Shown here: one piece after another, positions 3,630-51,487 of the stretch
How positions within the stretch are numbered: the first letter of the stretch is position 1
How the letters are laid out: every line of letters starts with the position of its first letter
Assembly: GCF_016097555.1 (NCBI RefSeq)
Contig: NC_054706.1
Coordinates: 53,016,793-53,080,792, forward strand
Direction of reading: 5' to 3'
Length of the DNA stretch: 64,000 bases
From: Gigantopelta aegis
Taxonomy: Eukaryota > Mollusca > Gastropoda > Neomphalida > Peltospiridae
Translations under genes and position numbers: made by a program
The notes under the pieces: generated by a model
What the model saw: the letters and a program-made list of their open reading frames with translations, nothing else
Database searches by the model: none
What the model was told of the DNA's origin: nothing

Positions 3630-3691
3630 CAGAACGTTTCCTTTCTTCTTAATGTAACCTTTATTAGCAGCATTAAACCAGTACTTTATCA
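3630..3691 (-). CDS. Gene A exon 2
   Basis: 62 nt, bounded by TTTTAG and CTG|GTAAGT. It completes the split valine and encodes IKYWFNAANKGYIKKKGNVL. Length and phase equal exon 2 of B, C and D. No stop or indel is present. Confidence 0.8.
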
Positions 3692-4539
3692 CTAAAAGAA
3701 ACAAGGCAAATATAAATCTGAATGACAAAACCGTATTCCATGATCAAAATCGTATCCATGCACAAGAAAAAACGTTAGACAAAGTCATGATTGCATTCAT
3801 GATCTACTATCAGATGCGTGTCTTTAGGAAGACTGAAATTCCAATATTACTTGGTATTCCAGTATTCAAGGTGTTATTCAGTATGAATGTTGAAAAAATA
3901 CCGACTCTATTGGTTATTAATTCAGCGGAAAATGTGTTTGCTTTGTTTAACGACACCACTAAAGCATATTGATTAATTAGTCATCGGCTATTGGATGTCA
4001 AACATTTGGTAATTCAGACTCGTAGTCATCAAAGGAAACCTGCTACATTTTTCCTAACACAGCAAGGGATCTTTTATATGTACTTTCTCACAGACAGGAA
4101 AGCGCATACCACTGCGTTTGACCAGTTGTGATGCACTGGTTGGAACGAGAAAAAAACAATCAATTGAATGGATCCACTGAGGTGGTTCGATCCTGCGACG
4201 CAAGAACCTCAAGCGAGCAATCAACCGACTGGGCTAAATCCGGCTCCTTTAGTGAAAAATGTCTTTTGTTTATGTACAGCTCGAATATTCCAAAAAAACA
4301 AACAACTCACCCTCATGGTGTTCCTCCACAATGTACACTGGGATCTCCAGCTCGGCGCCGCTGTCTTGTTTTACGTGGAAATCTTCCACACGTGACTGTC
4401 CAGCCACAGGCAGATTGGCGGAAGACGAACCGGGACAGGGGCTGGGCGTCTGTCTCCACCGCACGAAGAGCCAAGAAGCTGCCCATAATAGGACAACGAT
4501 AAGAAAGAGTTCCACCATCCTGATACTGCGAATCTTCAT
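3630..4539 (-). CDS. Gene A: membrane-anchored UPF0489 (C5orf22-like) protein, 5' exons only
   Basis: Two coding exons of a UPF0489 family member are visible, 4311-4539 and 3630-3691, joined in phase 1 across a 619-nt intron that holds a SINE. They encode a basic N-terminus, a membrane anchor at about residues 10-27, a Pro/Ser-rich stalk, [10 protein letters not shown] and then VIKYWFNAANKGYIKKKGNVL-like sequence (one residue over 20, so given here as VIKYW...KKKGNVL). Both exons are open and both splice sites are canonical. The exons that should carry HIDGHSD and the large C-terminal domain were not found in the 3.6 kb to the left, where only SINEs and miniature elements occur. They may lie beyond the window or be lost. 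An upstream exon 0 lies at 6878-6925. Family assignment rests on B, C and D; whether A is active is unknown. Confidence 0.75.
3935..4250 (-). mobile_element. SINE type Sd (head gamma)
   Basis: Shares the core and tail T1 but has a different tRNA-like head (TTTAGCCCAGTCGGTTGA, B box GGATCGAACCA). Lies in intron 1 of gene A. Confidence 0.8.
4311..4539 (-). CDS. Gene A exon 1: cytosolic start, membrane anchor, VEEHHE motif
   Basis: 229 nt, start codon in MKIRSIRMVE. Basic residues precede a hydrophobic segment (FLIVVLLWAASWLFV), which fits a type II signal anchor. The exon ends CATGAG G|GTGAGT, phase 1, so the next codon is the split valine of EEHHEV. A likely branch point (TAAC) and an AAG acceptor lie just before the ATG, so an upstream exon is expected. 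Confidence 0.8.
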
Positions 4540-4656
4540 CTTCTTGTCACACAGGCCAAGACAGTTAGAGATCTACAGTTTGCAAAGTAGACGAATCACG
4601 TGTAGAGTCTCATTAGAATGGGATGGTATAATTAACAGACATACACGTCTGCTGCG

Positions 4657-5025
4657 TTCATTTGATGCTCGTGAAGATCGTGAAATCTCAAGTTCCAAAT
4701 TGTGAAAACGACTTCACCAATTGGAGAGCGTTCATTTGGTGCTAGTGATATTATGAAATATCAAGTTCCAAATTGTTAAAATGACTTCACCAATTGGAGA
4801 GCGTTCATTTCGTGCTCGTGAATATTGCGAATTCTCAAGTTCCAAATTGTCAAAACAACTTCACCAATTGGAGAGCGTTCATTTGGTGCTCGTGAATATC
4901 GTGAATTCTCAAGTTCCAAATTGTCAAAACGACTTCACCAATTGGAGAGCTTTCATTTGATGCTCGTGAAGATCGTGAATTCTCAAGTTCCAAATTGTCA
5001 AAACGACTTCACCAAGGGGAGAGTG
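4657..5025 (+). repeat. 74-bp tandem repeat, 5 copies
   Basis: Units start TTCATTTGRTGCTCGTGAA and contain CTCAAGTTCCAAATTGT and ACTTCACCAATTGGAGAG. It lies in intron 0 of gene A. Confidence 0.95.
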
Positions 5026-5677
5026 TTCATGTAATTTATAGACAATCTGCACTGTCACTCCAATCGCAAAGACCCCAACTAATAACTGCACGAATGATAT
5101 GTGTTTGTACCACCATTTTGTCATTGAGTTGTGAAGATTGAGACAGAAAATCTTACGCCAGTTCACAAGCCAAACGAACACTCTTCACAACTTTTGATAT
5201 CTGATATTCAAGACTTCCAATGAACGCAGCAATATTACCTTCAGTACAACGTGCCTCCTAAAGTGATGAAATGATTTACAAGGTCTGTTTTGACTTGTTT
5301 ATGAGTGATTATAATGTTAGTGGTGCTGGGCAGAAACAACAATAAAAACGGTAGAACTTTCCTTTGGCACTGTCACGTATAAAAGAACATTATAAATACT
5401 TACAATAAACAGAGTTAGGGTTAGGGTTAGTGACAGTGCCTAAAGAAGGTCCTTCCATAAAAACAATTTAGAATTATTTGCATTTAAAATACATTTTCTT
5501 CACTCTTATATTAACCGATACTTAAAATGCCACCACCCCACCCTGCCTCGCCCCACAATAATGTCACAAAATTATAACATTTCGCAAAAATTCTAATTTC
5601 TAGAATATAGTTGGGGTGATCTAAGTCCTTGTGGTATACACATTACGTAATATTATATTATTGCTATATCTCTTTTA

Positions 5678-6052
5678 AGGGGATATACCCTAGTTTCAAC
5701 ATGTGAAAATTAACACTACGTTTAGTTAATCTACAAACGTGTAACATATTTGGATAAAGTTACAACTGAGTGAAACATGAGTCTGCGACTTTGAAATGGG
5801 GAAATACCCTCTAAAATTAGACTAAAACTCGATTCCATAACTGTTGTCTCAGACGCACGTGCGTTTTTAAAAATATGAGAAATGCATTTTGTGATATTAA
5901 AAACACCGGGATGACCAAAAGCACTTCGAATGTACGGAAATCGATAATCTAAACAATAAAATCTATGTAAAGTATGATTTCCGTTATCAAAAACAGCTCC
6001 AATAGTAAAAAATATGCCTTGGTGTTTAAAAACTAGGGTATGTCCCTTTAAG
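5678..6052 (-). mobile_element. TTAA miniature element, family F2
   Basis: Ends TTAAGGGGATATACCCTAG and CTAGGGTATGTCCCTTTAA. It is the reverse complement of 21245-21615 over its length. Sits in intron 0 of gene A. Confidence 0.85.
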
Positions 6053-6251
6053 TTATTTGTTGTTTTTCATGTTTAAAAAAACCCCAAAACCTTTAACAAA
6101 TTAGATCGTATCAATTGTTCTTCTCTTATTAGTAATAATAATAGTGAAATTATGATCCACTATCATCAGAGACATTTATTTTTATATGTATTTCATGAAT
6201 TACCATATTTACAGATCACACTATATATACATAATAATATATATGAAAAAC

Positions 6252-6303
6252 AAAGACATGTGCATACATATACATAGACATAGACATACACATACACACA
6301 CAC

Positions 6304-6334
<31 letters not shown>

Positions 6335-6663: not shown

Positions 6664-6708
<45 letters not shown>

Positions 6709-6925: not shown

Positions 6926-6956
6926 CACAGAAAAACATCAACTGTAATTATACTCA

Positions 6957-7365: not shown

Positions 7366-7797
7366 ATCTGCTTCCTCGTTTCAAACGATACTGTATTGCA
7401 AGCATAACGGCGAATAAAAGGAACAAGTCAGGAATGGCAGAAAACATCATTTCAGATTTATTTACAGCAGCAGATAAACAGTCAAAATAACGCAGCAAAT
7501 TCAACATCATTATCCAGTAAATCCTGTCTGGTGTTCAAGTGAAGCTAAGCTACGAACTTAGCAAAAGTAGTTTAATAGGAATGCAGGCATAAACGTAATT
7601 TCATTGGCTTAAATACTTGAAATTGTTTGTAAAGAGTTTCAATTTCAGTTCAGAAATTCCAGGCTTAAATTGCTCACTTCTGTCAAGAGGTAATCTTTCC
7701 GTTTTCCTTTTTATTAATTTTAGACATTATGACTTTAACATCGAAATGCAAAGTTACGATCAACCAGTTCAGTTCAGGATGTTTAACAAGTAAGCTA

Positions 7798-8187
7798 CCG
7801 GCCTCGGTGGCGTCGTGGTAGGTCATCGGTCTACAGGCTGGTAGGTACTGGGTTCGGATCCCAGTCGAGGCATGGGATTTTTAATCCAGATACCGACTCC
7901 AAACTCTGAGTGAGTGCTCCGCAAGGCTCTATGGGTAGGTGTAAACCACTTGCACCAACCAGTGATCCATAACTGGTTCAACAAAGGCCATGGTTTGTGC
8001 TATCCTGCCTGTGGGAAGCGCAAATAAAAGATCCCTTGCTGCTAATCGGAAGAGTAGCCCATATAGTGGCGACAGCGGGTTTCCTCTCAAAATCTGTGTG
8101 GTCCTTAACCATATGTCAGACGCCATATAACCGTAAATAAAATGTGTTGAGTGCGTCGTTAAATAAACATTTCTTTCTTTCTTTCAA
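7798..8187 (+). mobile_element. SINE type Sb (head beta, tail T2)
   Basis: Type Sb: head CCGGCCTCGGTGGCGTCGTG with B box GGGTTCGGATCCC, the shared core, and tail GTGCGTCGTTAAATAAAACA. Flanked by AAGTAAGCT, a target duplication inside an older repeat that continues with GTTATAGCGCACGCCTGTC. Confidence 0.9.
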
Positions 8188-13430: not shown

Positions 13431-14582
13431 TCAGTGTCTCCCATGCCAACCAGAAGGTCCTCCTAACAGGTCCTCGTCATAGTAAAACGAATCCTCTCTT
13501 ATCCTGGGGAAAGCGTCTCTAAGTACAAGTTTAACGTCTGACTCTATTTTGGTAAAATATTTCTTCGGTGTATAGCCATCTCTTGTAGACCTACAGATTG
13601 TGACAGCACCGGGAACAAACTGTTTTTGTTTTAATATGTCCTTCAGATTATCCGTCCTCTGATCTATTTCTGCTAAGGATGGGACGTGAAACATCACCGC
13701 AGTCTCGTTGGGTGTGTTGTAACCATAACATACTCTCATACTGTGTCTGTGATCAAAGTTCATTGTCTTTGGGCTTTGGTTTAAGCAGATTCCAACTTCT
13801 GCAAATGCTTTCAACTGATCTATAGTCATTTTACAGAATTCCAAAATGAGTTTGTTCAGAACAAGTTTGATTCTAGTATGGTCACATATATGCTGTTCCA
13901 GATTTCTCTCTCGAAGATTCTTCATGAACTCTGGCCGTAGCTTCTTTACGGCGGAGGCTAGCTTCCTGGAATTTTTACAGATACTGTCATTAACCTTTTC
14001 ACTCTGAGAGCAGACGATCTTGAAATCAATAATGGTCTGTATTAAATAGTTGTAGAACGAGTCTGTCTGTCTCTCTTGATGCGTATTCGAGGCGCATACC
14101 AAACGTTTGACCATCTGGGATACTTCATCCACCCTGTCCTGGTCAATCCCAACCCCATACAGTCGCGATACTGATGCCTCGACACCATAGAAGTCCTCAT
14201 CCACATCCAACAAGACCTTGTCCTTGGCGGTTATCCAGATGCCAGACTTAATAAGAGATATTGCCTTAATCTCACTCACGATCTCAACCAGCCCAGAATA
14301 CTTAATATTGCATTCTGATTCCTTTATGGGTATCCCATCCATGTCTTCTAAGTCGGAGGCGTTATTCATGAAGCAGTAGGTCTCGAAATTAAATTCCTTT
14401 GATGACATGCACGCACAGAGCTCCATCACAAGTCGACCTGTTTTCGTGTCCTCGCGGTTCATGGAGCCGTACCGTACCGGGAATGAGGCGTATTCCTTTT
14501 CACTCTGCCCCTCCGAGCTGTCTGTGTTCCATGTCGGCCATACCCAGATGAACCGATCTATGAAACCCGTTAGAGCAGATGC
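13431..14582 (-). CDS. Gene B exon 4: main UPF0489 domain, C-terminal
   Basis: 1152 nt, starting after TTTTGCAG with [19 protein letters not shown] and ending GWHGRH-stop (TGA at 13431-13433). Conserved parts are [19 protein letters not shown], a cysteine-rich middle, [13 protein letters not shown] and [21 protein letters not shown] on the plus strand (AATAAA on the coding strand) lies about 30 bp past the stop. Confidence 0.9.
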   Translation of the reverse strand, partial: ASALTGFIDRFIWVWPTWNTDSSEGQSEKEYASFPVRYGSMNREDTKTGRLVMELCACMSSKEFNFETYCFMNNASDLEDMDGIPIKESECNIKYSGLVEIVSEIKAISLIKSGIWITAKDKVLLDVDEDFYGVEASVSRLYGVGIDQDRVDEVSQMVKRLVCASNTHQERQTDSFYNYLIQTIIDFKIVCSQSEKVNDSICKNSRKLASAVKKLRPEFMKNLRERNLEQHICDHTRIKLVLNKLILEFCKMTIDQLKAFAEVGICLNQSPKTMNFDHRHSMRVCYGYNTPNETAVMFHVPSLAEIDQRTDNLKDILKQKQFVPGAVTICRSTRDGYTPKKYFTKIESDVKLVLRDAFPRIREDSFYYDEDLLGGPSGWHGRH

Positions 14583-15693: not shown

Positions 15694-17753
15694 AAGTATG
15701 TATGTATATATATGTATATGTGTATGTGTGTATGTATGAATGAATGTATGTGTATGTGTGCGTGCGGTTATGCGTGGGTGCATTCGTTTTGTTTAACGAC
15801 ACCACTATAGCACATTGATTTATTAATCATCGGCTATTGGATTTGAAACATTTGGTAATTTTGACATATAATCTTAGAGAGGAAACCCGCTACATTTTTC
15901 TATTAGTAGCAAGATATCTTTTATATGCACAATCCCGCAGACAGGCTAGCACATACCACAGCCTTTGATATACCAGCCGGAACGAGAAATAGCCCAATTG
16001 TCCCACCGACGAGGATCTATCCCAAACCGACTGCGCATCAAACGAATGCTTTATCACTGGGCTACGTCCCGCCTCTGTTGTTAACTACAAAACCACATAG
16101 ACTGGTAGTGGGGTTTTTTTTAGATGTTAAGACAAACATAACATTTACAATTTTATGCAAAACACAGCTCACACCTTCCATCTAAAGAAGAATACTTAAT
16201 AATATGTGTAAAATCGACTTCTCACTACAATGAAGACGTCGTTTTCCTGCATCATATTAGTAAGCTCGTGGTTGCTGATTGGATATCGAAAGAGAGGCCC
16301 CAACATCCATTTGGGTGGAGTGGCACCGTCAGAATGGCCGTCTATGTGAAGCTGAAAGATGGAAGGAAGGAAATGGTTTATTTAACGACGCACTCAACAC
16401 ATTGTATTTACGGTTATATGGCGTCGGGCATATGGTTAAGGGCCACACAGATATTGTGGGAGGAAACCCGCTGTTGCCACTTCATGGGCTACTCTTTTCG
16501 ATTAGCAGCAAGAGGTCTTTTGTATGCAACATCCCATAGACAGGATAGCACATACCACGGCCTTTGATGTACCAGTCGTGGTGCACTGGCTGGAGCGAGA
16601 ATGTGAAGCTAAAAGAGTTGTAAGTCCATTGGTAAATTTACAAATCAACGAATAATGAATTAAACATACACGATCTTATGTGCAAAGCAGTTTTACTCTC
16701 TTTTTTAAAATTGCTTTTATTCTACATGCCGATTGTTGTTGGATACCATTTGAAAACAAAAACAAGACATGTCAACTACTAAGAGATATTTTTTTGAATT
16801 GTGATTCCATGGGAGCCAAAACAAAACCACCCCAAAACGATTGAGCCATGATGTTATGAATATTTGCTGTTGTTCTTCCTGTCGTTGATGCCACAAACGT
16901 ATAACACTAAGACAAAGATGAACACTTAATGAAGCTGCAGTATGTATGTGAAAGACCTTGCTTCGCATTACTTGTCAGATAAACTACCACTGATTTTGTT
17001 CAAAAATTTGAGACATTCAGGATTTGGAGGTTTGTCGGGAAACCCTTGTATTAGAAACAATGTTTTTTTCTGAAAGGCAAGACAGTTATCGCTGCCAAAG
17101 CCGCACCTCTAAATAACGCAGAGTCCAAGGGGTGTTTTAACAATAATGTAATTTTAGGCACTCGTGAATCAGTAAAAACTAATATCAAATGTTTGAAAAC
17201 AAAAAGGTGAGCCCATTATGTTTGTAAATATAAAAGGCATCTGACGTTTTGTTTTGTCAGTCATTATTGAGAACAATTAATATATTTCGCAGCAATTAAA
17301 ACTTACCAGAACATTTCCTGACTTCGGAATATACCCCTGGTTAGCAGCCCCGTACCAGTACTTTATTACTGAAAGAAACAGAATAACATACAAATAAAAT
17401 TATTGCTAAATTTCATGTTTGAATATTCGTTGGGTGTTATTTTCAATTTTACGCCATTTTTTTTCGTGTATTTAACTACTAGCCTTTTAATTTTTGCAAC
17501 TTATTTGAAAAGAAACAGCAAAATATTTACACGTGATATACGCACCATATATACTATTGTGTCACATCACCATTGGAATGTTTTAGTTTCTATTTCATTT
17601 CTACTCATCCACTTCATTCAGCTTTAATTAGAAATCCACCCGTTAAAATACCCAAAGATTAACAGACTAATCCAACACTGATTTTAATATTCGGCTACTG
17701 TTCTTTACAAAACCGGTATCTTGTTCATATCTGTTTCGTATTTTTAAAAAACA

Positions 17754-20270: not shown

Positions 20271-21177
20271 ACCCACCCCATCTCCGCTTGATGCAAATAT
20301 GTACGGATTCGTCGTAACGGATAAGCAAACATCCAAAACAGTATGCGCAAGTTTAATATTTCAGTGGTTTGTAGCACCATCATCATCATCATCAACACCA
20401 TAACCTACATCACCGTCATCATCATCATCACAACCTACATCATCATCATTAGCATCACCATTATCACCTGCACCTACATCATCATAATCATCACCATCAC
20501 AACCTACATCATCATCATCATCATCACCATCACCACAACCTACATCGTTATCATCATCATCACCATCACCACAACCTACATCATCATCATCGTCACCATC
20601 ATCATCATAACCTATGTCATCAGAATAATCACCGCCACAATCTATATCATCATCATTATCACCATCACAACCTACATAATCATAATCATAATCATCATCA
20701 TCATCATCATATCTTTACACTTGGTAGTGTGGGGAAAAATAGCCACCTTCCAAGAGTGGACCCCACAAATATTTTTGGGACAGCACCAATGGCAAACGAA
20801 CACATAAAAATTGTAACCAAATTATTAAAAAGGGGGCACATTAATTTTTAGGCAAGACAAGTAACTCTGAACTCCTCGCCTTGGATACACTATTGCCTTA
20901 CCCCACCCGTTGAATTTCCAAGGACATGTCCCTGGTATAACTACTTACCTTCGTGGTGTTCCTCCACAATGTACACTGGGATCTTCGTCTGGGCGGCGCT
21001 GTCTTGTTTTACGTAAAAATCTCCCACACGTGACTGTCCAGCCACAGGCATACCGATAGAAGACGAACCGGAACAGACGCTGGGAGTCCGTATCCACCAC
21101 ACAAACAGCCAACACACCGCCCAGAAGAGGACTATGATCAAAACGAGTTCCGCCAACCTGACACTGCGAATCTTCAT
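13431..21177 (-). CDS. Gene B: membrane-anchored UPF0489 (C5orf22-like) protein, complete
   Basis: Exons 20949-21177, 17307-17368, 16226-16351 and 13431-14582 join to an open frame of 522 residues. Residues 11-29 are a membrane anchor preceded by K2, R4 and R7, which predicts a type II protein with the main domain lumenal or outside. [10 protein letters not shown] is at 67-76, HIDGHSD at 99-105 and [11 protein letters not shown] from about 264. [10 protein letters not shown] lies at 469-478. The order matches UPF0489 and ends like human C5orf22. D101, H103, D105, D265 and D267 resemble the DxHxD and DxD metal ligands of arginase-fold enzymes. Many cysteines and sequons at N213, N337 and N431 fit a secretory location. 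An exon 0 lies at 23687-23734. A SINE sits in front of exon 3. Catalytic activity is unproven. Confidence 0.9.
14655..14846. repeat. (TG)n/(TATG)n microsatellite
   Basis: In intron 3 of gene B. Confidence 0.95.
14846..14984. mobile_element. 139-bp palindrome with 3-nt loop
   Basis: AATTATTGACCA ... GGTCAATAATT; near-perfect arms meet at GGCC-GTT-GGCC. Related direct repeats (AGGGCAATATCAC) recur at 15491-15560. Confidence 0.9.
15606..15775. repeat. (TA)n then (TATG)n microsatellite
   Basis: In intron 3 of gene B. Confidence 0.95.
15786..16076 (-). mobile_element. SINE type Sa
   Basis: In intron 3 of gene B, about 150 bp from exon 3, same strand as the gene. Confidence 0.9.
16226..16351 (-). 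CDS. Gene B exon 3: HIDGHSD metal-motif exon
   Basis: 126 nt, 42 codons, phase 0 at its end (ATT GTA|GTGAGA). It carries [15 protein letters not shown] and ends NDVFIV. The acceptor TCTTTCAG lies inside the target duplication of a SINE (16361-16601), so two copies of the acceptor exist. Only the proximal one gives an open exon. Confidence 0.85.
16361..16601 (-). mobile_element. SINE type Sab, 5' truncated, at the exon 3 acceptor of gene B
   Basis: Shared core and tail T2; begins at TCTCGCTCC, so the tRNA head is missing. Flanked by ATGTGAAGCTGAAAGA and ATGTGAAGCTAAAAGA, a 16-bp target duplication containing the splice acceptor. Confidence 0.9.
17307..17368 (-). CDS. Gene B exon 2
   Basis: 62 nt between TTTCAG and CTG|GTAAGT. 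It encodes the split valine and [20 protein letters not shown], identical in protein to C exon 2. Confidence 0.85.
17752..17791. repeat. Poly(A) tract
   Basis: In intron 1 of gene B. Confidence 0.9.
17797..18352. repeat. Degenerate remnants of the intron 1 minisatellite
   Basis: AGCACATATAACACxxTTATTA occurs near 17797-17830 and several times at 18243-18352, matching the expanded array in gene C intron 1. Confidence 0.65.
18713..18905. repeat. (CATA)n/(CACG)n microsatellite
   Basis: In intron 1 of gene B. Confidence 0.95.
18996..19256 (-). mobile_element. SINE type Sa, head end lost
   Basis: Tail T1 and core are clear; ends at the GATCGATCC part of the head. Confidence 0.85.
19670..19830 (-). 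mobile_element. SINE type Sd fragment split by poly(G)
   Basis: Core fragment, a poly(G) run at 19728-19749, then head gamma. Confidence 0.7.
20239..20270. repeat. Poly(C) tract
   Basis: Homopolymer. Confidence 0.9.
20380..20712. repeat. (ATC)n with higher-order units
   Basis: CACAACCTACATCATCATC recurs at about 30-50 bp spacing. In intron 1 of gene B. Confidence 0.9.
20949..21177 (-). CDS. Gene B exon 1: membrane anchor and VEEHHE motif
   Basis: 229 nt, [10 protein letters not shown] followed by the hydrophobic run [19 protein letters not shown] Ser/Pro stalk and [10 protein letters not shown] follow. Donor is GAA G|GTAAGT, phase 1. A miniature TTAA element (21245-21615) lies about 70 bp upstream in intron 0. 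Confidence 0.85.
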
Positions 21178-21925: not shown

Positions 21926-22625
21926 GGTCCCCGCGAGTACTCGGGCACGGGCCGAGTCTAGCAAGACTCGAGTCCGTTCATAGAACTCGAGTACCCTCAC
22001 AAGGAAGAGGACTCTCGTTTAATTATATTTTTTATGTCATTTTGCAATGTGCTTGCAGCCGGTTACATTTTAGGGCTATGAGTCATGGATGGAAAACAAG
22101 TCGATTGTGTGGAAGGAAATGTTTTATTTAACGACGCACTCAACACATTTTATTTACGGTTATATGGCGTCGGACATATGGTTAAGAACCACACAGATAT
22201 TGAGAGAGAAAACCCGCTGTCTCCACTTCTAGGGCTACTCTTTTTCGATGAGCAGCAAGGGATCTTTTATATACACCATCCCATAGACATGATAGCACAT
22301 ACCACGGCCTTTGATGTACCAGTCGTGATGCACTGGCTGGAGCGTAAAATAGCCCAATGGGCCCACCGACGAAGATCGATCCCAAACTGACCGCGCATTA
22401 AGCGAGCGCTTTACCACCGAGCTATGTCTTGCCCCCCGATTGTGTGGAATGCAATACAATGGCATGATTTGGCATCCATGTTCAGTGCTAGAATTAAAAT
22501 GCATAATGATAATTTTACTTTATTCCTTAATCTCGTTATCATCTTGTGTAAATGTAGGGTACTCGGGTCCGGTTCGAGTTTGACCCTCGAGTACTCGAGT
22601 TCAATATGTTGGACTCATGGAGGCC
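21926..22625. mobile_element. CTCGAGTACTCG-rich repeat split by a SINE
   Basis: Blocks at 21926-22000 and 22553-22625 share GTAGGGTxC and CTCGAGTACTCGxGT and flank the SINE at 22113. Confidence 0.5.
22113..22437 (-). mobile_element. SINE type Sab (head alpha, tail T2), full length
   Basis: Complete head, core and tail, flanked by the 13-bp duplication CGATTGTGTGGAA. Sits in intron 0 of gene B. Confidence 0.95.
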
Positions 22626-26874: not shown

Positions 26875-27253
26875 TGGCGACCCATCTTTTAAAACATTGG
26901 AGATAAAGTCAGGCATATGACCTCTTAGGTCTATGCCAAGGAGGTCTTTAAAATTTTATACTTCCATAAGCTTTCTCCAGGTCAAAACAAGACCGATACC
27001 AACTACTGGTTGTGGATGAAAACACTCATACAAAACGTTTTCGACCGCGCTACGATTAGACCTAAACCCACATTGCACATTAGTAAGCAGTTTGTGGGAC
27101 TCAAGATACCAGACAAATGTTCGGTTGATTAGTTTTTATGGTTTTACAAATGCAACTTGTCAAAGCGATAGGGGGATAACTGGTAGGATTTGCCGGATGC
27201 TTACTAGGCTTAGGTATAGGAATGATAATTACCTTTCTCCAAACAGAAGGAAG
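26875..27253 (-). mobile_element. Decayed LINE reverse transcriptase (Jockey/CR1-like)
   Basis: In broken frames the minus strand reads VIIIPIPKPSKHPANPTSY, IALTSCICKT, FVWYLESHKLLTNVQCGFRS and DLRGHMPDFISNVLKDG. These are hallmark non-LTR reverse transcriptase stretches. Stops and frameshifts make it dead. A SINE interrupts it; the rest of its N-terminal side follows from 27634. Confidence 0.85.
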
Positions 27254-27633
27254 ACCGGCCTCGGTGGCGTCGTGGTTAGGCCATCGGTCTACAAGCTGGT
27301 AGGTACTGGGTTCGGATCCCAGTCGAGGCATGGGATATTTAATCTAGATACCGACTCCAAACCGTGAGTGAGTGCTCCGCAAGGCTCAATGGGTAGGTGT
27401 AAACCACTTGCACCGACCAGTGATCCATAACTGGTTTAACAAAGGCCATGGTTTGTGCTATCCTGCCTGTGGGAAGTGCAAATAAAAGATCCCTTGCTGC
27501 TAATCGGAAAGAGTAGCCCATGTAGTGGCGACAGCGGGTTTCCTCTCAAAATATGTGTGGTCCTTAGCCATATGTCTGACGCCATATAACCGTAAATAAA
27601 ATGTGTTGAGTGCGTCGTTAAATAAAACATTTC
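27254..27633 (+). mobile_element. SINE type Sb, full length
   Basis: Flanked by CCAAACAGAAGGAA on both sides; inserted in the LINE fragment. Confidence 0.95.
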
Positions 27634-31841: not shown

Positions 31842-32999
31842 CTACACAAGAAATCTCCCATGCCAACCAGAAGGTCCTCCTAACAGGTCCTCGTCATAGT
31901 AAAACGAATCCTCTCGTATTCCGGGGAAAGCGTCTCTAAGTACAAGTTTAACGTCTGATTCTATTTTGGTAAAATATTTCTTTGGTGTATAGCCATCTCT
32001 TGTAGATCTACAGATTGTGACAGCACCAGGAACAAACTGTTTTTGTTTTAATATGTCCTTCAGATTATCCGTCCTTTTATCTATTTCGGCTACAGATGGG
32101 ACGTAAAACATCACCAGGGTGTCGTCAGGCGTGTTGTATCCATAGCAGACCCGCATACTGTGTCTGTGATCAAAGTTCATTGTCTTTGGGCTTTGGTTTA
32201 AGCAGATTCCAACTTCAGCCAATGCTTTCAGCTGATCTATAGACATTTTACAGAATTCCAAAATGAGTCTGTTCAGAGCAAATTTGATTTTAGTATGATC
32301 ACATAGATTCTGTTCTAGATTTCTCTCTCGAAGATTCTTCATGAACTCTGGCTGTAGCTTTCGTACAGCAGAGCCCAGTTGCCTGGAATTTTTACAAATA
32401 CTGTCATTAGCTCTTTCTCTCAAAGAGCAGACGATCTTGAAATCAATAATGGTTTGTATTAAAAAGTTGTAAAACGAGTCTGTCTGTCTCTCTTGATGCG
32501 TATTCGAGGCGCATACCAAACGTTCGACCATCTGGGATACTTCATCCACCCTGTCCTGGTCAATCCCAACCCCATACAGTCGCGATACTGATGCCTCGAC
32601 ACCATAGAAGTCCTCATCCACATCCAACAAGACCTTGTCCTTGGCGGTTATCCAGGTGCCAGACTTAATCAGAGATATTGCCTTGGTGTCACTCACAATC
32701 TCAACCAGCCCAGAATACTTAATATTACATTCTGATTCTTCAATTGGTGTTCCATCCATGTCCAGATAGTCGGTTGCGTTATTTATGAAACAGTAGTTGT
32801 CATAATGATATTCTTTGGAAGTGATGCACGCGCACAGTTCGGTCACAAGTCTGCCCGTCTTGGAGTCATTGCGGTACATGGCGCCATAACGCGCAGCGAA
32901 GGAGGCGTATTCGTGTTTACTCTGCCCCTCCACACTCTTCGTGTTCCACGCGGGCCACACCCAGATGTACCGACTGATGAAACCCGTTAGCGCAGAAGC
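31842..32999 (-). CDS. Gene C exon 4: main UPF0489 domain, C-terminal
   Basis: 1158 nt, starts after CTTCACAG with [19 protein letters not shown] and ends GWHGRFLV-stop (TAG at 31842-31844). It has [24 protein letters not shown] and [11 protein letters not shown] coding-strand AATAAA lies near 31722-31729. Confidence 0.9.
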   Translation of the reverse strand, partial: ASALTGFISRYIWVWPAWNTKSVEGQSKHEYASFAARYGAMYRNDSKTGRLVTELCACITSKEYHYDNYCFINNATDYLDMDGTPIEESECNIKYSGLVEIVSDTKAISLIKSGTWITAKDKVLLDVDEDFYGVEASVSRLYGVGIDQDRVDEVSQMVERLVCASNTHQERQTDSFYNFLIQTIIDFKIVCSLRERANDSICKNSRQLGSAVRKLQPEFMKNLRERNLEQNLCDHTKIKFALNRLILEFCKMSIDQLKALAEVGICLNQSPKTMNFDHRHSMRVCYGYNTPDDTLVMFYVPSVAEIDKRTDNLKDILKQKQFVPGAVTICRSTRDGYTPKKYFTKIESDVKLVLRDAFPGIREDSFYYDEDLLGGPSGWHGRFLV

Positions 33000-34526
33000 C
33001 TGTGAAGAAAAAAATGATTGCCATTAATTTATAACAAATCTGATGCTTATTGGACAGTACCTAGCGTACATTAAAGTTAAAGTTTGTTTTGTTTAACCAG
33101 CTGATACGTGCTCCTCAAGTTCCGGTTGTCATGTGACAATCAACACCTCTGCATCAAGGATCTATCGCTGTGGGCATGGGTTATCGTTATATTGCATGAA
33201 ATCAATAACGTTTGTTTTGTTTAACGACACCATTAGAGCACATTGATTTGTTAATCATCGGCTAGTGGATGTCAAACATTTGGTAATTTTGACATATAGT
33301 CTTAAGAGAAAAAACCCGTTACATTTTTTTCATTAGTAGCAAAGGCTCTTTTATATGCACCATCCCACAGACCAGACAGGATAGCATATACTATGGCCTT
33401 TGATACACCAGTCGTGGTGCACTGGTTGGAACGAGAAATTGCTGACATCACCGATGGGGTTCGATCCCAGACCGACCGTGTATTAAGCGAGAGTTTTACT
33501 ACTGGGCCACGTCCCGGCCCTACCTTATATTAAATGGAAGGAAGTAAGAAAAACGAATCGCAGGACAGTAATGTAATAAGGTTTTCTCAAACTGGTCAAA
33601 GAGGGCACTATTACACTAAAAGGAAACTGTTTCGTATTTTGTGGAGTGGTGGTTGGAGATGAGGAGTGGAGGGGGGGGGGGGGGGGAGAAGCAACTGCCC
33701 TGGTTAATTTTGTTTTATATCAGTAATAGAAATGGAGGTACTTGTGGATGCATGCCGTGTGGCTTTAACTGCGTCATGATATCGTTGACATGTTTTCACT
33801 CAAGTCTGTATAGTTTCCTTAAAATCATCAAGCATATGACACTTCCTAAAATCGTATTGTGTCATCTTTAATAAAGTTAAATACTAATGCATGCATAATC
33901 CTAGGTTTACTTTCATTCTCCTCAATGGACCCTTCTCTGATTGGGTTTTTGTTTCAATCCCAATTAGTTCCCCGTGAATATGTTTGCAGTCGTGTGCTAA
34001 TGTTTGTACTATGATTTTCCATTTAACTTCGTAATATGTTTTTTCGTACGTACGAAATTATTGGAAGATAAAATCCAGTTTAGTGCGATAAAATGCATTA
34101 GGACAACAAACTCCTTGTTTATACATACACTGATGTTCTAAACAAAAACAAAAATCTTTAAAATGTAATTTTCGTCAACAGAGAGACTCCGTATGTCGAC
34201 AGATGTAACAATGATACCCAGGATAGTCCCTTTAAGATGATTTCCTTACTACAACAAAGACGTCGTTTTGCTGCATCATGTTGGTAAGCTCGTGGTTGCT
34301 GATTGGATATCGAAAGAGAGGCCCAAGCTTCCATTTGGGAGGAGGTGCTCCATCAGAATGGCCGTCTATGTGAAGCTGAAAGAGTTGTAATTTGATTGGA
34401 AAATATAATAAGCAAACCATGAATTAATTTAAAATACATGAAATGGTGTGAATTTCAATCTTACGTTTTTAAAATTAATATTCCTTTTTTTCAAAACAGA
34501 CAGAACAGAACATTGCAACAAATACG

Positions 34527-34670: not shown

Positions 34671-36417
34671 CGAGAGGGAGAGGGAGGGAGGGAGAGAGAG
34701 AGAGAGAGAGGGAGAGAGAGGGGAGAGGGGAGAGGGAGGGGAGAGGGAGAGAGAGAGAGACACACACAGAGAGAGACAGAGAGAGAGAGAGATGGCTAAC
34801 ATTCCTGCCGTATATGTCTCGCTCCAGTCAGTGCACTACGACTGGTACATCAAAGGCAGTGGTGTGCGTTATCCTCTCTATGGGATGGTGCAAATAAAAG
34901 ATCCCTTGCTGCTAATCGAAAAGAGTAGCTCATGAAGTGGTGACAGCGGGTTTCCTCCCTCAATATCTGTGTGGTCTTTAACCATATGTCTGATGCCATA
35001 TAACCGTAAATAAAAATGTGTTGAGTGCGTCGTTAAATAAAACATGTCCTTCCTTCCTGCCGTATATTCGGTCCGGCAAGTTACAAATTCTTCCGGCCCG
35101 AATCGAAACCTGCCGGACCAAACATGGTTGACTCAAACTAATGTGTGTTATAAACGTAAAATAATTGCCGGTCCGACGGGAGGACTGGGAACAAAATCTC
35201 CCGGCCTGTGATGATGATAACTGGCAAAAATAAACGGTTGGGACGGCATTATTTCCTGATTAACACTTACCAGCACATTTCCAGACTTCGGAATATACCC
35301 CTGGTTAGCGGCGCCGTACCAGTACTTTATTACTGAATCAAACAGAATAACACATACAGCTGAAATCATGGTTACATTTAGTGTTCAAGTATGCGAATGG
35401 TGCTATTTCAATATGCAGGATGGTCAAATTATTCTTTTTCAGAAGGTACCTACAACTAGATCAACTTGTACTCACCTGCTAGTCACTGACAACGATTATT
35501 TTAACACTCAATTACATTAACGTTTTTGTTAGATCTGTTTGATGTTTGATATATAAAACACTATTATTAAAGGGCACGTATAACACTATTATTAAAAGAG
35601 CACACAAAATATTTATTTTTAAAGGAGCATATAACATTATTATTAAAGCAACATATATCACTATTATTAAAGGAGCATATATAACATGTGACACTATTTT
35701 TAATAACACACATATAGCATTATTATTAAAAACCCACATAAAACAATTATTAACTATTATTAAAGGGGCACGTATAACACTATTATTAAAAGAGCACACA
35801 AAATATGTATTAAAGGAGCATATAACATTATTATTAAAGCAACATATATCACTATTATTAAAGGAGTATATATAACATGTGACACTATTTTTAATAACAC
35901 ACATATAACATTATTATTAAAAACCCAAATAAAACAATTATTAAAGGAGCATATAACACTATTATTAAAGGAACATATTTAACACTATTAGTAAAGGGGC
36001 ATATATATAATACTGTTGTTAAAGGAGCATATATAACACTATTATTAAAGGAGCATATATAACACTATTAGTAAAGGGGCATATATAACACTTATTAAAA
36101 GAGCACACAAAACAATCATTAAAGGAGCATATAACACTATTATTAAAGGAGCGCATATAACGTGTATAAACTTTTATTAAAGGAGCATATATAACTTACA
36201 AGAACTACTTACCCTCGTGGTGTTCCTCCATTATGTACACTGGGATCTTCGACTGGGCGGCTCGGTTTTCTGACTGTCCCGCTACAGGTAGACTAGTGGA
36301 AGATGAACCGGAACAGACGCTGGGAGTCCGTATCCACCACACAAACAGACAACACGCCGCACAGAAGAGGACTATGATCAAAACAAGTTCCGTCAACCTG
36401 ACACTGCGAATCTTCAT
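31842..36417 (-). CDS. Gene C: membrane-anchored UPF0489 (C5orf22-like) protein, complete
   Basis: Exons 36213-36417, 35271-35332, 34250-34375 and 31842-32999 join to an open frame of 516 residues. The architecture is that of B, its closest relative. HIDGHSD places D93, H95 and D97; LDVDEDF places D257 and D259. Two differences stand out. Exon 1 lacks 24 nt in the stalk after GQS, and a 6-nt loss removes the B-type stop, so the protein ends GRFLV instead of GRH. A 183-bp stretch of exon 4 is almost identical to B and suggests gene conversion. Exon 0 is at 37609-37656. Intron 1 is mostly a minisatellite. Location is inferred to be lumenal or extracellular; function is unknown. Confidence 0.9.
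33096..33225 (-). repeat. Displaced copy of the gene A-type upstream block
   Basis: About 130 bp close to 6957-7080, including the join to a SINE tail at the same base. It lies in intron 3 of gene C and lacks exon 0. Confidence 0.6.
33210..33525 (-). mobile_element. SINE type Sa
   Basis: Intron 3 of gene C; a tail T1 fragment precedes the displaced upstream block at 33068-33098. Confidence 0.85.
33885..34236. mobile_element. Probable TTAA miniature element
   Basis: Right end CCCAGGATAGTCCCTTTAA is clear; the left end is uncertain. It stops about 15 bp from the gene C exon 3 donor. Confidence 0.5.
34250..34375 (-). CDS. Gene C exon 3: HIDGHSD metal-motif exon
   Basis: 126 nt, acceptor CTCTTTCAG, donor GTT GTA|GTAAGG. 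It encodes [15 protein letters not shown] and ends NDVFVV. Unlike B it has no SINE at its acceptor. A TTAAAGG-ended element finishes about 15 bp beyond the donor. Confidence 0.85.
34531..34792. repeat. (GA)n microsatellite
   Basis: In intron 2 of gene C. Confidence 0.95.
34818..35058 (+). mobile_element. SINE type Sab, 5' truncated
   Basis: Same truncation point (TCTCGCTCC) as 16361-16601. Flanked by TTCCTGCCGTATAT. Intron 2 of gene C, antisense. Confidence 0.9.
35271..35332 (-). CDS. Gene C exon 2
   Basis: 62 nt between GATTCAG and CTG|GTAAGT. Protein [20 protein letters not shown] after the split valine. Confidence 0.85.
35551..36196. repeat. Intron 1 minisatellite, about 24-26 bp unit
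   Basis: Variants of ATTATTAAAGGAGCATATA plus TAACACT fill most of gene C intron 1. Confidence 0.9.
36213..36417 (-). CDS. Gene C exon 1: membrane anchor and MEEHHE motif
   Basis: 205 nt, 24 nt shorter than A and [11 protein letters not shown] precedes a hydrophobic run, then a shortened stalk and PVYIMEEHHE. Donor GAG G|GTAAGT, phase 1. The deletion keeps frame and removes the part that in B reads RVGDFYVK. Confidence 0.85.
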
Positions 36418-38816: not shown

Positions 38817-39037
38817 TTTGTTGTGGAAAGTGCTATAAGCTGTTTCAATTTGTGTGTGTTCTACAGCAGTGTATATTATCACTTGTGAGGGAGGGTGTTT
38901 TTCCTATGCAAGAATACAGTGATATACATCCCGCCACACTGTATGTTGACAATGTTAGAATCTGTCCACATAAGTTTAATGAATTAATTTAAATTCGTCC
39001 CATTTTACATGCATGTCTTCTTGGTTTTAATATTTTG

Positions 39038-39430
39038 ACCGGCCTCGGTGGCGTCGTGGTTAGGCCATCGGTCTACAGGCTGGTAGGTACTGGGTTCGGA
39101 TTCCAGTCGAGGCATGGGATTTTTAATCCAGATATCGACTCCAAACCCTGAGTGAGTGCTCCGCAAGGCTCAATGGGTAGGTGTAAACCACTTGCACCGA
39201 CCAGTGATCCATAACTGGTTCAACAAAGGCCATGGTTTGTGCTATCCTGCCTGTGGGAAGCGCAAATAAAAGATCTCTTGCTGCCTGTCGTAAAAGAGTA
39301 GCCTATGTGGCGACAGCGGGTTTCTTCTAAAAAACAGTGTCAGAATGACTATATGTTTGACGTCCAATAGACGATGATAAGATAAAAAATCAATGTGCTC
39401 TAGTGGCGTCGTTAAATAAAACAAACTTTC
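39038..39430 (+). mobile_element. SINE type Sba (head beta, tail T1-like)
   Basis: Sb head and core, but the 3' end reads GTCCAATAGACGATGATAAG and CAATGTGCTCTAGTGGCG, a T1-type tail. Confidence 0.9.
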
Positions 39431-46645: not shown

Positions 46646-46871
46646 ATGGTAAGATGTCGCGCAGTTGCTATTCGGGACTTGATAGCTGTTGTCATACTGT
46701 TGTTAATGGTGAGTGTCATGGTTTTCTGGCATATGAGAAGCACGTGCGAATCTTCTCATTCTAGACAACCGTGTATTATAACAGAACAATTTAAATCTTC
46801 GTTGGACATCGGAGGGTTCCGGAATCCCTCGGATAACACGCCAGTTTATGTAGTGGAAGAACACCATGAAG
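46646..46871 (+). CDS. Gene D exon 1: membrane anchor and VEEHHE motif
   Basis: 226 nt from ATG to GAA G|GTAAGA, phase 1. It starts MVRCRAVAIRDL, followed by the anchor. The in-frame TTG at 46637 is not used as start because the ATG has a near-ideal context. A SINE begins 25 bp after the donor. Confidence 0.85.
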
Positions 46872-48839
46872 GTAAGATACGTTCTCTATTTTCAGGGTCC
46901 AGCCAGTGCACCACGACTGGTACATCAAAGGCCGTGGTATGTGCTATCCTGTCTATGGGATGGTGCATATAAAAGATCTCTTGCTGCTAATCGAAAAGAG
47001 TAGCCCATGAAGTGGCGACAGCGGGTTTCCTCTCTCAATATCTGTGTGGTCCTTAACCATGTGTCTGACGCCATATAACCGTAAATAAAATGTGTTGAGT
47101 GCGTCGTTAAATAAAACATTTCCTTCCTTCCTTTCTATAAAGCAAGTTTTAATGGTCTGAAACTTGCAGTTTGTGTCGGAAAATTAAACCTATATCTCGC
47201 CTTTTGACATCGTTACGGTTAGATAAAAATAGCCATGTGTTTTATCATTTAAAATTTGTTTATAGAAACTAACATGATTTAGTAATTTGGCTTTTTTTTT
47301 TAAATAACGTGATAAAATTATTTGGCTTTTCAAAACATAGATCCATTTGTAAAACGGAATTTTAAAAATACAATATGCTAGCATAATTTGGTATTTTTCA
47401 GTTTTTGTTAAATGCGAGTTTGTACTATAATAATATCATTTTATAACAAACACTAGAGCTTTTTAAATATATTTTTATGGTAGCTGAGTTTTTAAAATCC
47501 CTTCAGACAATCATATTTAACATTTAATCTTTAAGAACTCTTTGCCTAATTAAAAACATTTTATAAAATAGTTCTTTCCCTTGCATTGCTCTGAAATGGT
47601 GAACGCTTAAATTCATTCATTTTAAGTTAGGCCTATTTTCGTGCTTATATCAAATTAAGGTTCAAGCACGCATTGAAGCACCGGTAAGTGAGTTTGAGGT
47701 TAGTTGATTAGTGAAAATTGAAATCAGTATAATTGCTTTACAACACAGTGAGCCGTTAAAATTCGTTCAGGAAAAACAGTACGTTTCACACTTAAATCCA
47801 ATGGCTTAACCACCATATTCTTTTATTTTACCTTAAGCTTAACAGCTCATTGGTTCAGCAATAAATACATTACATCATGGTGAACAAATGACAAAGAGTA
47901 AAACAAAATATTCAAATATTAGGAGAATGCAAACAATACAAGTATTTCTCACATTTGTGGCACTGTATAAATATTTTCCAAAATTTCGTAACTACTTAGT
48001 GTTATTAATTTGAAACAATTCAATAAATTTAAATACAGAAGGGTTTTTCCAATAATAAGGTTTGATATATTGTTTTCTTAGATCGTTATATAATGGGCAA
48101 ACCAGTATAAAATGAAATTCATCTTCAATTTCATCAACACAAGCAAAACATGTTCTTTTAGAACGGTCAGTAGTGTTATATCTACCGGTCTCGACAGCTA
48201 AATTGTGAGATGACAAACGAAATTTAGTAATACATTTTCTAAAATAAGTACATTTAACATTTACATATAACAGTTAAAGTTTTTTTTTTTAACGACACTA
48301 CTAAAGCACATTGATTTATTAATCATCCGTTATTGGATTCAAACATTTGGTAATTGTGACATATAGTCCTGGAAAGGATACATTTTGCCATTAGTAGCAA
48401 GGGATCTTTTATATCCACCATCCCATAGACAGGATAGCACATGCCACGGCCTTTAATATAACAGTCGTGGTGCACTGGCTGGAGCGACCATACAACAGAG
48501 GCTGACCACGCTCAAAAACAAACTTAATCATTTATATAAAATCACCTGCTGCACCCATGTTTTTTTTTTTCTTTCTAAATTCCATTAATAAATTTAAGTA
48601 ATATAAAAAATAATCAATGTTTTTGTTTTTCTTTTAATTTTGAAGTCTAATATATGCTTCTTCTTTTTGTATTTTGTGTACAGTGCTGAAATACTGGTTT
48701 CAAGCTGCAGAGAAAGGCCTCATTGCAAAGAAGGGTAACGTTTTGGTAAGTGCTGCATTGTTTATATATATATAACGATGATTAAATAATAGTAGTAGTA
48801 GTAGTTGTTGTTATTGTTGTTGTTGTGGTTGTTGTTATT

Positions 48840-48884
<45 letters not shown>

Positions 48885-48986
48885 AAACTACTACTACTAC
48901 TATTGCTACTACTAGTAGTAGTAGTTCTAGTAGTAGTAGTAGTAGTAGGAGTAATAGTAGTCGTAGTACTAGCAGCAGCAGTTGTA

Positions 48987-49021
<35 letters not shown>

Positions 49022-49107
49022 TCTAGTAATAGTAGTAGTAGTAGTACTAACAGCAGCAGCAGCGATAGTAGTAGAAGCAGCTGTTGTAGAAATAGTTGTA
49101 GTAGTTC

Positions 49108-49147
<40 letters not shown>

Positions 49148-49149
49148 TA

Positions 49150-49182
<33 letters not shown>

Positions 49183-49266
49183 TAGTAATAACAGCAGCAG
49201 CAGCGATAGTAGTAGCAACAGCTGTAGTAGAAATAGTTGTAGTAGTTCTAGTAGTAGTAGTAGTAA

Positions 49267-49313
<47 letters not shown>

Positions 49314-51487
49314 TTTGCATCAGGTTTTGTTGCATCATTAAGATCTTTAAAACGTAAACTAAACATGTTAATTAATTAAGCTTGAATGAGACCGTTTTCT
49401 CTTTAGTTTCACATTGACGGACATTCGGACGGTGGAATGCCGCCGCACAGTGATATTCTGACGTTGTTCAAATGGCCAACATCCAAACAGGTCAAAGCAA
49501 TGATGCAGAAAAACGACGTCTTTATCGTGGTGAGTTGCTTATCCACGTGTTGTTGTTGTTGTTGTTTTTATTTTTTCCGTTCTGTTCTCTAAATTTGTCC
49601 ATGACAAATATAAACACAAAGAGCTGTTGTATGAAAGCCGAAAGCATTAGTATGTCAGTATGGGTTAGATTTAAAAACAGAACCGACATTGCATAAATTG
49701 TGGTTGTTTCTTTATGATGATGATGGTGGTGGTCGTGATGATGGTGATGATGTTGGTGGTGGTGGTGGTGGTGTGGGTGGTGGTGATGGTGGTGGTGTGG
49801 GTGGTTTGCGTGGTGGTGGTGGTGGTGGTGTCGATGGTAGCGGTGATGATGAATATAATGTCAGAGATGGAGGTGCAAACTGGTGACAATAACATCACTG
49901 TCGCTGGAGGTTACTAGTTGTATGCTGGTTCTGATATCGGTAATCTTGATAGTTCTGTGGTTGTGATAATGATGGTGGTGGTATCGGTGATGATGATGTG
50001 GTGCGTATAATAGGTGAGTTATGATATCAACGATGATGGCGGTAGTAGTAATGGCGATAATAGATCGGACGATGATGATAACTATAATTGTGGTGGTGAT
50101 GGTTTTGATGGTTTTGATATGTTGATGCTGCTGGTGGTGGTGGTGGTGGTGGTGGTGGTGGTGGTGGTGGTGGTGATGAAGGTGGTGATGATGTTGATGA
50201 TGACGACGACGATGACTATAAAGATGATGATGATGATGACGACGATGACGACAACGATGATGATGATGATGATGATTACGACGACGCTGATAATGATGAC
50301 TTACCATAATGTTTTCATTTCAGGCAGCAGCTTTGACAGGGCTGATTACTCGCTACATATGGGTGTCGCCTCCCTGGGACGTCGATCTTGCGGCAGACGT
50401 GGGGAACGCAGTGAAAACAGTCGAACTGGGGACCATGATGCGACTGAGCCTCGACAACGAACTGATACTCGACTACTGCATCTGTATCCCCGCGGGCCTT
50501 AGCGACATCACAGAGCCCATGTGCTTCATGAAGAACCTCACAGAGGACGCCACGACAGCCGAGCCGGATCCCGTTGAGGTGGGCGTGGACGAGTGTAACA
50601 TCCAGTCCAGAGGATCCGTGGAGGTGGTCAGCGAGGACACGGCGATAGACATGCTGTATCGCGGAAACTGGATCAGCCCTGACGACAGCATCATCCTCGA
50701 CATCGACGAGGACTACTACGGCGTCGAGTCGGCGGTGCAGCCGCTGTACGACGCCGGATTGGACGAGAGAACTCTCACGTGGCCGGATTTCTACGTGTCC
50801 AGACTCTTCTGCAGCAGGGACGCCGCTCAGGAGACGATGGCCGACAGGTTCTACCATTCCCTGATGCAGAAGATCCGAAACGTCAGACTTTACTGCACGA
50901 GACTGGAAGGGGACAACGCCACCAACCGGTGCGAGGAGCATCCGGCAATGATCGAGACTCTGATGCAGTTCGTTCCCAGCATGATCGAGGACCTGAAGAG
51001 ACAGGAGGTGCTCCGGTCGGCGCTGTGCACGCAAGACGAGTCCAAACTGAACACGATTCTCGGCGGGTTGATACGTCACTCCGTCAAATACACGGTGCCG
51101 CAGCTGGACGCCCTGTCGCAGGTCGGCATATGCCACAGGTGCTCCGTGAGCTCCTACGACTTCGAATCGAGGTACGGCATGAAGCTGTGCGACGGCTACA
51201 ACAAACCCAATGACAGCATCGTCCCGTTCCACATGCCATCCGTGGAGGAGATCAACTTTCGGACGGTGAATCTGAGGGAGATTCTCAAGGACGCGTACAT
51301 GACGCCAGGAATAGTCACGGTATGTAGGTCAACGCGAGACGGATACACGCCAAGGAGTCACTTTCGTCAAATTGAGAACGACGTCTTGAACTCTCTAGGA
51401 GACTACGTGAAAGGTGTGGATAAAGACATGGTGTACTACGATCCAGACTTGTTAGGCGGACGGTTCGGCTGGCACAACAGACATTGA
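46646..51487 (+). CDS. Gene D: membrane-anchored UPF0489 (C5orf22-like) protein, complete, divergent copy
   Basis: Exons 46646-46871, 48684-48745, 49407-49529 and 50324-51487 join to an open frame of 524 residues. The start ATG has a strong CACCATGG context. A hydrophobic anchor (LIAVVILLLMVSVMVFW) lies near residues 12-28, PVYVVEEHHE at 66-75, HIDGHSD at 98-104 and LDIDEDYYGVE near 262. [10 protein letters not shown] is near the end. D100, H102, D104, D263 and D265 fit the arginase-fold metal pattern. Exon 4 has G/C-ending codons throughout, unlike B and C. Introns are filled with SINEs, a LINE fragment and (GTA)n or (GGT/GAT)n repeats. No exon 0 was recognised. It faces away from C, so the two are divergent. 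Confidence 0.9.
46897..47137 (+). mobile_element. SINE type Sab, 5' truncated
   Basis: Starts 25 bp past the gene D exon 1 donor; sense orientation. Confidence 0.9.
47636..47822 (-). mobile_element. SINE type Sc, degenerate
   Basis: Tail and middle recognisable; gene D intron 1. Confidence 0.65.
47835..48265 (-). mobile_element. LINE 3' fragment with zinc-binding C-terminal domain
   Basis: The minus strand reads KFRLSSHNLAVETGRY, then CFACVDEIEDEFHFILVCPLY and LRKQYI (21-residue span shown in two parts by its C-x2-C, EDE and H-x4-C features). This is the zinc-finger-like end of non-LTR reverse transcriptases, as in zf-RVT. It is antisense in gene D intron 1. Confidence 0.8.
48268..48490 (-). 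mobile_element. SINE type Sa, head lost
   Basis: Adjoins the LINE fragment in gene D intron 1. Confidence 0.85.
48684..48745 (+). CDS. Gene D exon 2
   Basis: 62 nt between GTGTACAG and TTG|GTAAGT. It encodes LKYWFQAAEKGLIAKKGNVL after the split valine. Confidence 0.85.
48788..49313. repeat. (GTA)n microsatellite
   Basis: About 525 bp in gene D intron 2, with CAGCAGCAG-type interruptions. Confidence 0.95.
49407..49529 (+). CDS. Gene D exon 3: HIDGHSD metal-motif exon
   Basis: 123 nt, 41 codons, one fewer than B and C. Acceptor TCTTTAG, donor ATC GTG|GTGAGT, phase 0. It carries [16 protein letters not shown] and ends QKNDVFIV. Confidence 0.85.
49713..50292. repeat. (GGT)n/(GAT)n microsatellites
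   Basis: Fill most of gene D intron 3, ending about 30 bp before exon 4. Confidence 0.95.
50324..51487 (+). CDS. Gene D exon 4: main UPF0489 domain, C-terminal
   Basis: 1164 nt after TCATTTCAG, starting AAALTGLITRYIWVSPPWD and ending GWHNRH-stop (TGA at 51485-51487). Motifs LDIDEDYYGVE and [14 protein letters not shown] are present. Sequons NLT, NAT and NDS and many cysteines suggest a secretory domain. The stop codon is also the first base group of a 78-bp minisatellite. Confidence 0.9.
   Translation, partial: AAALTGLITRYIWVSPPWDVDLAADVGNAVKTVELGTMMRLSLDNELILDYCICIPAGLSDITEPMCFMKNLTEDATTAEPDPVEVGVDECNIQSRGSVEVVSEDTAIDMLYRGNWISPDDSIILDIDEDYYGVESAVQPLYDAGLDERTLTWPDFYVSRLFCSRDAAQETMADRFYHSLMQKIRNVRLYCTRLEGDNATNRCEEHPAMIETLMQFVPSMIEDLKRQEVLRSALCTQDESKLNTILGGLIRHSVKYTVPQLDALSQVGICHRCSVSSYDFESRYGMKLCDGYNKPNDSIVPFHMPSVEEINFRTVNLREILKDAYMTPGIVTVCRSTRDGYTPRSHFRQIENDVLNSLGDYVKGVDKDMVYYDPDLLGGRFGWHNRH

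Follow-up and report, generated by a model that had tools for sequence, protein, structure and literature searches.

The protein family PF12640 (UPF0489) includes bacterial peptide arginases, which have been shown experimentally to hydrolyse arginine to ornithine inside peptides (PMC10028609, PMC12703449). In one of these, OspR, manganese is bound by His12, Asp39, His41, Asp43, Asp165 and Asp167, while Glu11 lies near the guanidine, and Ser264 replaces Glu277 of arginase-1 (PMC10028609). The proven peptide arginases in these papers act in bacterial pathways for ribosomally synthesised and post-translationally modified peptides (RiPPs), and a role in animals has been proposed for C5orf22 (PMC10028609). 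Here we describe an array of genes of this family, named A to D, in the gastropod Gigantopelta aegis, at positions 3630-51487 of a window of 64,000 nucleotides (contig NC_054706.1, 53,016,793 to 53,080,792, forward strand; coordinates below are those of the window). An initial sequence-only reading had treated the family as uncharacterised; as PF12640 includes proven peptide arginases, this description does not hold, and the array genes therefore have a specific predicted chemistry. With moderate confidence, we propose that the array encodes type II membrane-anchored, secretory-pathway peptide arginases that would install ornithine in secreted peptides, for which we infer the catalysis, substrate, topology and use of exon 1.

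The assignment to the family is clear for the three complete genes. B, C and D all exceeded the curated PF12640 cut-off of 27 bits (E values of 3.7e-13, 2.5e-12 and 1.2e-12, with 50.6, 47.9 and 49.0 bits, respectively), whereas the 97-residue fragment of A scored below it (E 0.054, 14.3 bits), such that the UPF0489 membership attributed to all four copies stands for B, C and D. The NCBIfam model of the FlmR/OhkR peptide arginases (NF052474) matched both of the copies searched against it, B (E 2.3e-24) and D (E 7.1e-26). Among PDB sequences, OspR (8brp) was the sole convincing match, aligning with D (E 2.6e-10) and B (E 1.1e-12) in phmmer searches, and with a joint profile of B, C and D at E 3.9e-17. 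In the 8brp alignments, the chain index of which we take to be the published number plus one, the six metal ligands of OspR fall on H73, D100, H102, D104, D265 and D267 of D, and Glu11 and Ser264 on E72 and S473. B, C, D and three bacterial relatives share the same residue at each of these eight positions; in gene A, only the EEH motif lies inside the window. This conservation bears on the possibility that these are catalytically dead proteins, acting as lumenal receptors or binding proteins. Such a role would fit their large insert, and the conserved C-terminal tail YYDxDLLGGxxGWHxR (51434-51487 in D, and also ending B and C), which the three bacterial relatives lack. Yet it is very improbable, given the invariance of the active site in B, C and D, and that the longest stretches of the alignment without any variation are themselves motifs, namely HIDGHSDG and a second run of ten residues.

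These bacterial relatives were obtained by scanning genome contigs with the alignment of B, C and D, which confirmed three of 108 pattern matches: one in a metagenome-assembled genome (MAG) of Spirochaetaceae, and two in MAGs of Lachnospiraceae. Because the search was limited to two short peptide patterns, the three loci are relatives that were found, rather than a survey. Their profile matched OspR at E 7.8e-56. The neighbouring genes were scanned at two of the three loci, L001 and L003. At both, less than 3 kb separates the arginase from an NHLP-family export transporter, which scored above its cut-off, and from a Nif11-like leader peptide, which at 27.3 and 29.6 bits stayed under its cut-off of 32.3. 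In L001, the 3' side of the arginase is overlapped by a large frame, with matches to radical SAM families that are below cut-off. Both neighbourhoods are a peptide-modifying setting. Searches of mobile elements found no match in plasmids (using exon 4 of D only, 387 amino acids) or phages (using full D, at E values up to 0.01), none of 23 pattern matches in viral contigs was confirmed, and PADLOC returned nothing for exon 4 of D.

The array proteins differ from these relatives in several features. Firstly, in support of the anchor predicted in the sequence-only reading, a single N-terminal hydrophobic segment was found in all four copies, with a more positive N-flank, at residues 8-26 of A (4462-4518, minus strand), 11-29 of B (21091-21147, minus) and C (36331-36387, minus), and 12-30 of D (46679-46735, plus). 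The maximal Kyte-Doolittle scores over 19 residues were 2.38, 2.73, 2.96 and 2.66 for A to D, and those of B, C and D were reached by only four, one and two out of 20000 randomised 45-residue sequences of matching composition. The net charge of the N-flank was +3 in A and +2 in the other copies, against +2 and +1, respectively, for the C-flank. Secondly, the domains of B, C and D have 12 cysteines each, compared with four, three and two in the bacterial relatives. Between D and B, 11 of the 12 domain cysteines are conserved, whereas 195 of 451 residues overall are identical (hypergeometric P 6e-4, or 1.3e-3 without the cysteine of the CRS motif), and ten cysteines besides that in CRS are common to B, C and D. 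Thirdly, B, C and D contain four, four and three sequons, compared with one, none and none in the bacterial domains; two aligned sequon positions are present in all three proteins, two in two of the three, and one in a single protein. Hence the features of a type II membrane protein, namely a single N-terminal hydrophobic helix, a more positive N-flank, cysteines and sequons, are all present at the level of sequence. Their combination leads us to favour an anchored protein, with its domain predicted to lie in the lumen of the secretory pathway or to be extracellular, in keeping with the lumenal or extracellular domain suggested at the outset.

Two alternatives concern this N-terminus. The hydrophobic segment might be a cleaved signal peptide, releasing a secreted enzyme with the same chemistry, differing only in its anchoring. 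An N-terminal position with a basic n-region fits a signal peptide as well as an anchor; this is nevertheless distinctly unlikely, as the hydrophobic run extends for about 19 residues, and is then followed by bulky or charged residues (a stretch of 17), in which a small-x-small cleavage site was not evident by eye. Alternatively, the proteins might be cytosolic and similar to C5orf22, which is not known to have an anchor; the hydrophobic start would then be mis-modelled, skipped, or anchoring the protein with its domain in the cytosol. The gene models are sequence-based predictions, the true start may differ where the frame is open upstream of the ATG (in A, B and C), and the charge bias is small. 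Against this, the hydrophobic segment is found in all four copies, including D, the N-terminal part of which is 25 % identical to that of B, and the conservation of cysteines and sequons fits an oxidising lumen. Furthermore, skipping of exon 1 would remove a metal ligand, because this exon also encodes the motif VEEHHE. Overall, a cytosolic location is even more doubtful than secretion.

For an anchored peptide arginase, the predicted arrangement would start with a short N-terminus in the cytosol, continue through a single signal-anchor helix and a stem, and end on the lumenal side with a disulfide-stabilised PF12640 catalytic domain, which would bind two manganese ions in the lumen of the endoplasmic reticulum (ER) or Golgi. 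The Golgi lumen receives manganese. By analogy with OspR, the two ions would activate a hydroxide to attack the guanidino carbon of peptidyl arginine, such that exposed arginines of passing secretory peptides would be converted to peptidyl-ornithine, remaining in the chain while urea leaves. The conversion would alter basic residues, and the products may resist cleavage by trypsin-like proteases, and perhaps by prohormone convertases: ornithine sites are reported to resist trypsin (PMC10028609), and convertase sites would presumably be masked likewise. Substrate choice may be set by the stretch between LDxDxD and CRS, which occupies the place of the OspR dimerisation domain, is rich in conserved cysteines and, at 199-203 residues compared with 93 in the bacterial relatives, is about twice the bacterial length. 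As OspR is described as slow and accepting of varied sequences, the substrate is not guessable from the enzyme.

The same domain might instead be a lumenal, anchored PF12640 metallohydrolase acting on something other than peptidyl arginine. Free guanidino compounds, ADP-ribosyl-arginine and acetylated amines would all be within the range of the wider arginase-deacetylase superfamily. UPF0489 is a clade of the tree of this superfamily, which includes deacetylases (PMC5454378), and the LDxDxD-to-CRS stretch exceeds its counterpart in the bacterial relatives by 106-110 residues. Slight turnover of free arginine, supplied at 1 mM, was seen with FlmR and OhkR (PMC12703449), which keeps this molecule among the candidate substrates, and the ornithine in HNP-1, a human peptide that is secreted, arises from ADP-ribosyl-arginine, in a process described as non-enzymatic (PMC3163396). 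However, OspR gave no urea from either free arginine or N-acetylarginamide (PMC10028609), and the equivalents of Glu11, the proposed guanidine contact in OspR, and Ser264 are retained alongside all the metal ligands. We therefore regard a different substrate as unlikely, although as an alternative to be taken seriously.

Several observations weigh against peptide arginases in the secretory pathway. The NF052474 scores of B and D (86.4 and 91.3 bits) are far below the subfamily cut-off of 350, which keeps these proteins out of the FlmR/OhkR subfamily, although the scores of the three bacterial relatives (188-200 bits) fall short of this cut-off too. The OspR score was carried by the first and last blocks in each search (with D, B or the joint profile), the middle block, containing LDxDxD, being insignificant alone (1.3, -0.4 and 5.6 bits, respectively), such that the Asp165 and Asp167 equivalents are assigned from the motif and from the multiple alignment. 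Alignment to bacterial members is poor in the middle of the protein, and the profile-profile comparison against the bacterial set yielded just a single aligned block, of 60 columns (98.5 %). The positive-inside bias is just one charge unit per copy. Finally, neither a substrate gene, nor a RiPP precursor or exporter, was recognised among the ten other open reading frames (ORFs) scanned in the window, which had no Pfam match above cut-off, and two weak ones below it.

Should the proposed activity be correct, this anchored branch of animal proteins, seemingly lumenal and with its active site intact, would place the chemistry at the site of maturation of peptide hormones, antimicrobial peptides and matrix proteins. 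We suggest, more tentatively, that animals might be able to form ornithine enzymatically within secreted proteins, through a family of peptide arginases anchored in the Golgi or ER, with several copies in this lineage, which could edit arginines of secretory peptides to mask basic cleavage sites or tune charge. Such a modification could have been overlooked, because ornithine is not encoded, and is visible in proteomics only if searched for as a change of -42.02 Da on arginine.

The array itself was partly confirmed relative to its first description. Its span is exact, running from the end of exon 2 of A to the stop codon of D, and the shared pattern of its genes is far beyond chance. While the array is real, only three of its four genes are seen in full, A lying only partly inside the window. 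B and C (minus strand) and D (plus strand) are complete and intact four-exon genes, encoding 522, 516 and 524 amino acids. The modelled introns follow the GT-AG rule, and have phases 1, 0 and 0 in all three, with which the visible part of A agrees; the exon lengths, initially said to be shared, are near-equal, with exon 2 alone identical in all copies. The interpretation placed on this array is, as set out above, partly supported. Chance ORFs were rejected on the basis of the family E-values and the common exon structure.

These models were built outwards from three large stop-to-stop frames, of 392, 393 and 395 codons, with the other exons identified through local tblastn, motif scans and the comparison of inter-exon regions. 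Exon 1, encoding the anchor, stem and VEEHHE motif in A, was placed through the joined models at 4311-4539 in A (229 nt, minus; tblastn E 8e-31 to exon 1 of B), 20949-21177 in B (229 nt, minus), 36213-36417 in C (205 nt, minus) and 46646-46871 in D (226 nt, plus). Exon 2, of 62 nt in all four, is at 3630-3691 in A (minus; modelled, with tblastn E 7e-8 from exon 2 of B and C) and, from inter-exon comparison and modelling, at 17307-17368 in B (minus), 35271-35332 in C (minus) and 48684-48745 in D (plus). Exon 3 was located by motif scan and modelling at 16226-16351 in B (126 nt, minus), 34250-34375 in C (126 nt, minus) and 49407-49529 in D (123 nt, plus); in B it encodes HIDGHSDG, which alignment equates with D39, H41 and D43 of OspR. 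Exon 4, supported by the frame, the model and PF12640, is at 13431-14582 in B (1152 nt, minus; encoding LDVDED, the cysteine-rich insert, a ten-residue motif and the stop), 31842-32999 in C (1158 nt, minus) and 50324-51487 in D (1164 nt, plus).

On the minus strand, upstream of 4539, 21177 and 36417, the frames of A, B and C stay open beyond the ATG used in the models (NCLGLCDKK) as far as a potential splice acceptor, and therefore an upstream exon or another start codon is possible in these genes. Just upstream of exon 1 of A, a 74-bp unit is repeated in tandem about five times (4654-5030), and a 78-bp minisatellite of about six copies (51484-51953) starts at the stop codon of D, within its presumed 3' untranslated region. 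In positions 1-3629, tblastn with the exon 3 and 4 peptides found no credible match to the missing exons of A, the best (E 0.042) being in a tandem-repeat tract at 1-506. Further copies in the window were likewise rejected, as the 41 of 88 per-exon tblastn matches that were outside the models all had E values of 0.042 or worse.

B and C are close relatives, with 86 % identity over 514 codons, whereas D is 41 % identical to each over the whole alignment, with synonymous sites saturated between D and the other copies. The visible part of A shares 72 % identity with B (97 codons) and 67 % with C (89 codons). The dN/dS between B and C was 0.21 (bootstrap 0.155-0.29), a signature of purifying selection on both, which makes it probable that B and C, if not all copies, are used. 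Pseudogenes were rejected on this ratio, and the three intact reading frames.

Dispersed repeats are also present in the window. Copies at 27253-27510, 7795-8052 and 39037-39294 (89 and 95 % to the reference) belong to a family in which ARAGORN called a tRNA-like gene (27258-27330), and which is probably a tRNA-derived short interspersed element. A family of about 190 bp (34823-35015, 46898-47090 and 63365-63557), and another of about 240 bp (16365-16605, 22111-22351 and 57564-57804), have copies inside the introns of B, C and D. A short ORF in intron 1 of D (47995-48273, minus) had no Pfam match, but reads like the end of the reverse transcriptase of a long interspersed element. No Rfam family reached its gathering score in the window, and a sigma-70 promoter scan is meaningless for an animal gene.

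Human C5orf22, a member of the same Pfam family as the array, probably differs from it at some motif residues. The authors of the OspR study propose that C5orf22 is a peptide arginase (PMC10028609). It was enriched 16.7-fold in Golgi immunoprecipitation, although on overexpression it showed no strong colocalisation with GCC185 (PMC10193996), and its mouse homolog is present in one proteomic table (PMC12592133). The study of FlmR and OhkR treats peptide arginases of RiPP pathways, its main text using neither the word "animal" nor the name C5orf22 (PMC12703449). In the open-licence literature of PubMed Central, no membrane-anchored animal UPF0489 protein or peptide arginase was found by title, abstract start or passages among the matches listed, nor was a test of the role proposed for C5orf22. 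The same literature returned nothing for ornithine with mollusc terms, none relevant by title or abstract start among the matches listed for ornithine with venom terms, and only HNP-1 for protein-bound ornithine.

Conventional arginases have the same kind of binuclear manganese ligand set as OspR (PMC10028609), but this identity was rejected for the array, as the motifs differ: in place of GGDHS, DAHxD and SxDxDxxDP, its proteins have EEHHE, DGHSD, and LDIDEDYY or LDVDEDFY, and Pfam ureohydrolase matched neither B, C and D, nor the fragment of A, at E values up to 1. The FlmR/OhkR enzymes are matched significantly by B and D, yet with scores far below the subfamily threshold. OspR, from the landornamide pathway of Kamptonema, is like the array in EEHxE, DxHxD, LDIDxDY, the six manganese ligands, Glu11 and Ser264, and CRSxxxGYTP. 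However, OspR is a 309-residue chain without such an anchor, which dimerises through residues 170-234 (PMC10028609), whereas the array proteins combine these shared motifs with anchoring at the N-terminus, a lengthened insert rich in cysteines and a tail conserved at the C-terminus, and are encoded by multiple gene copies split by introns.

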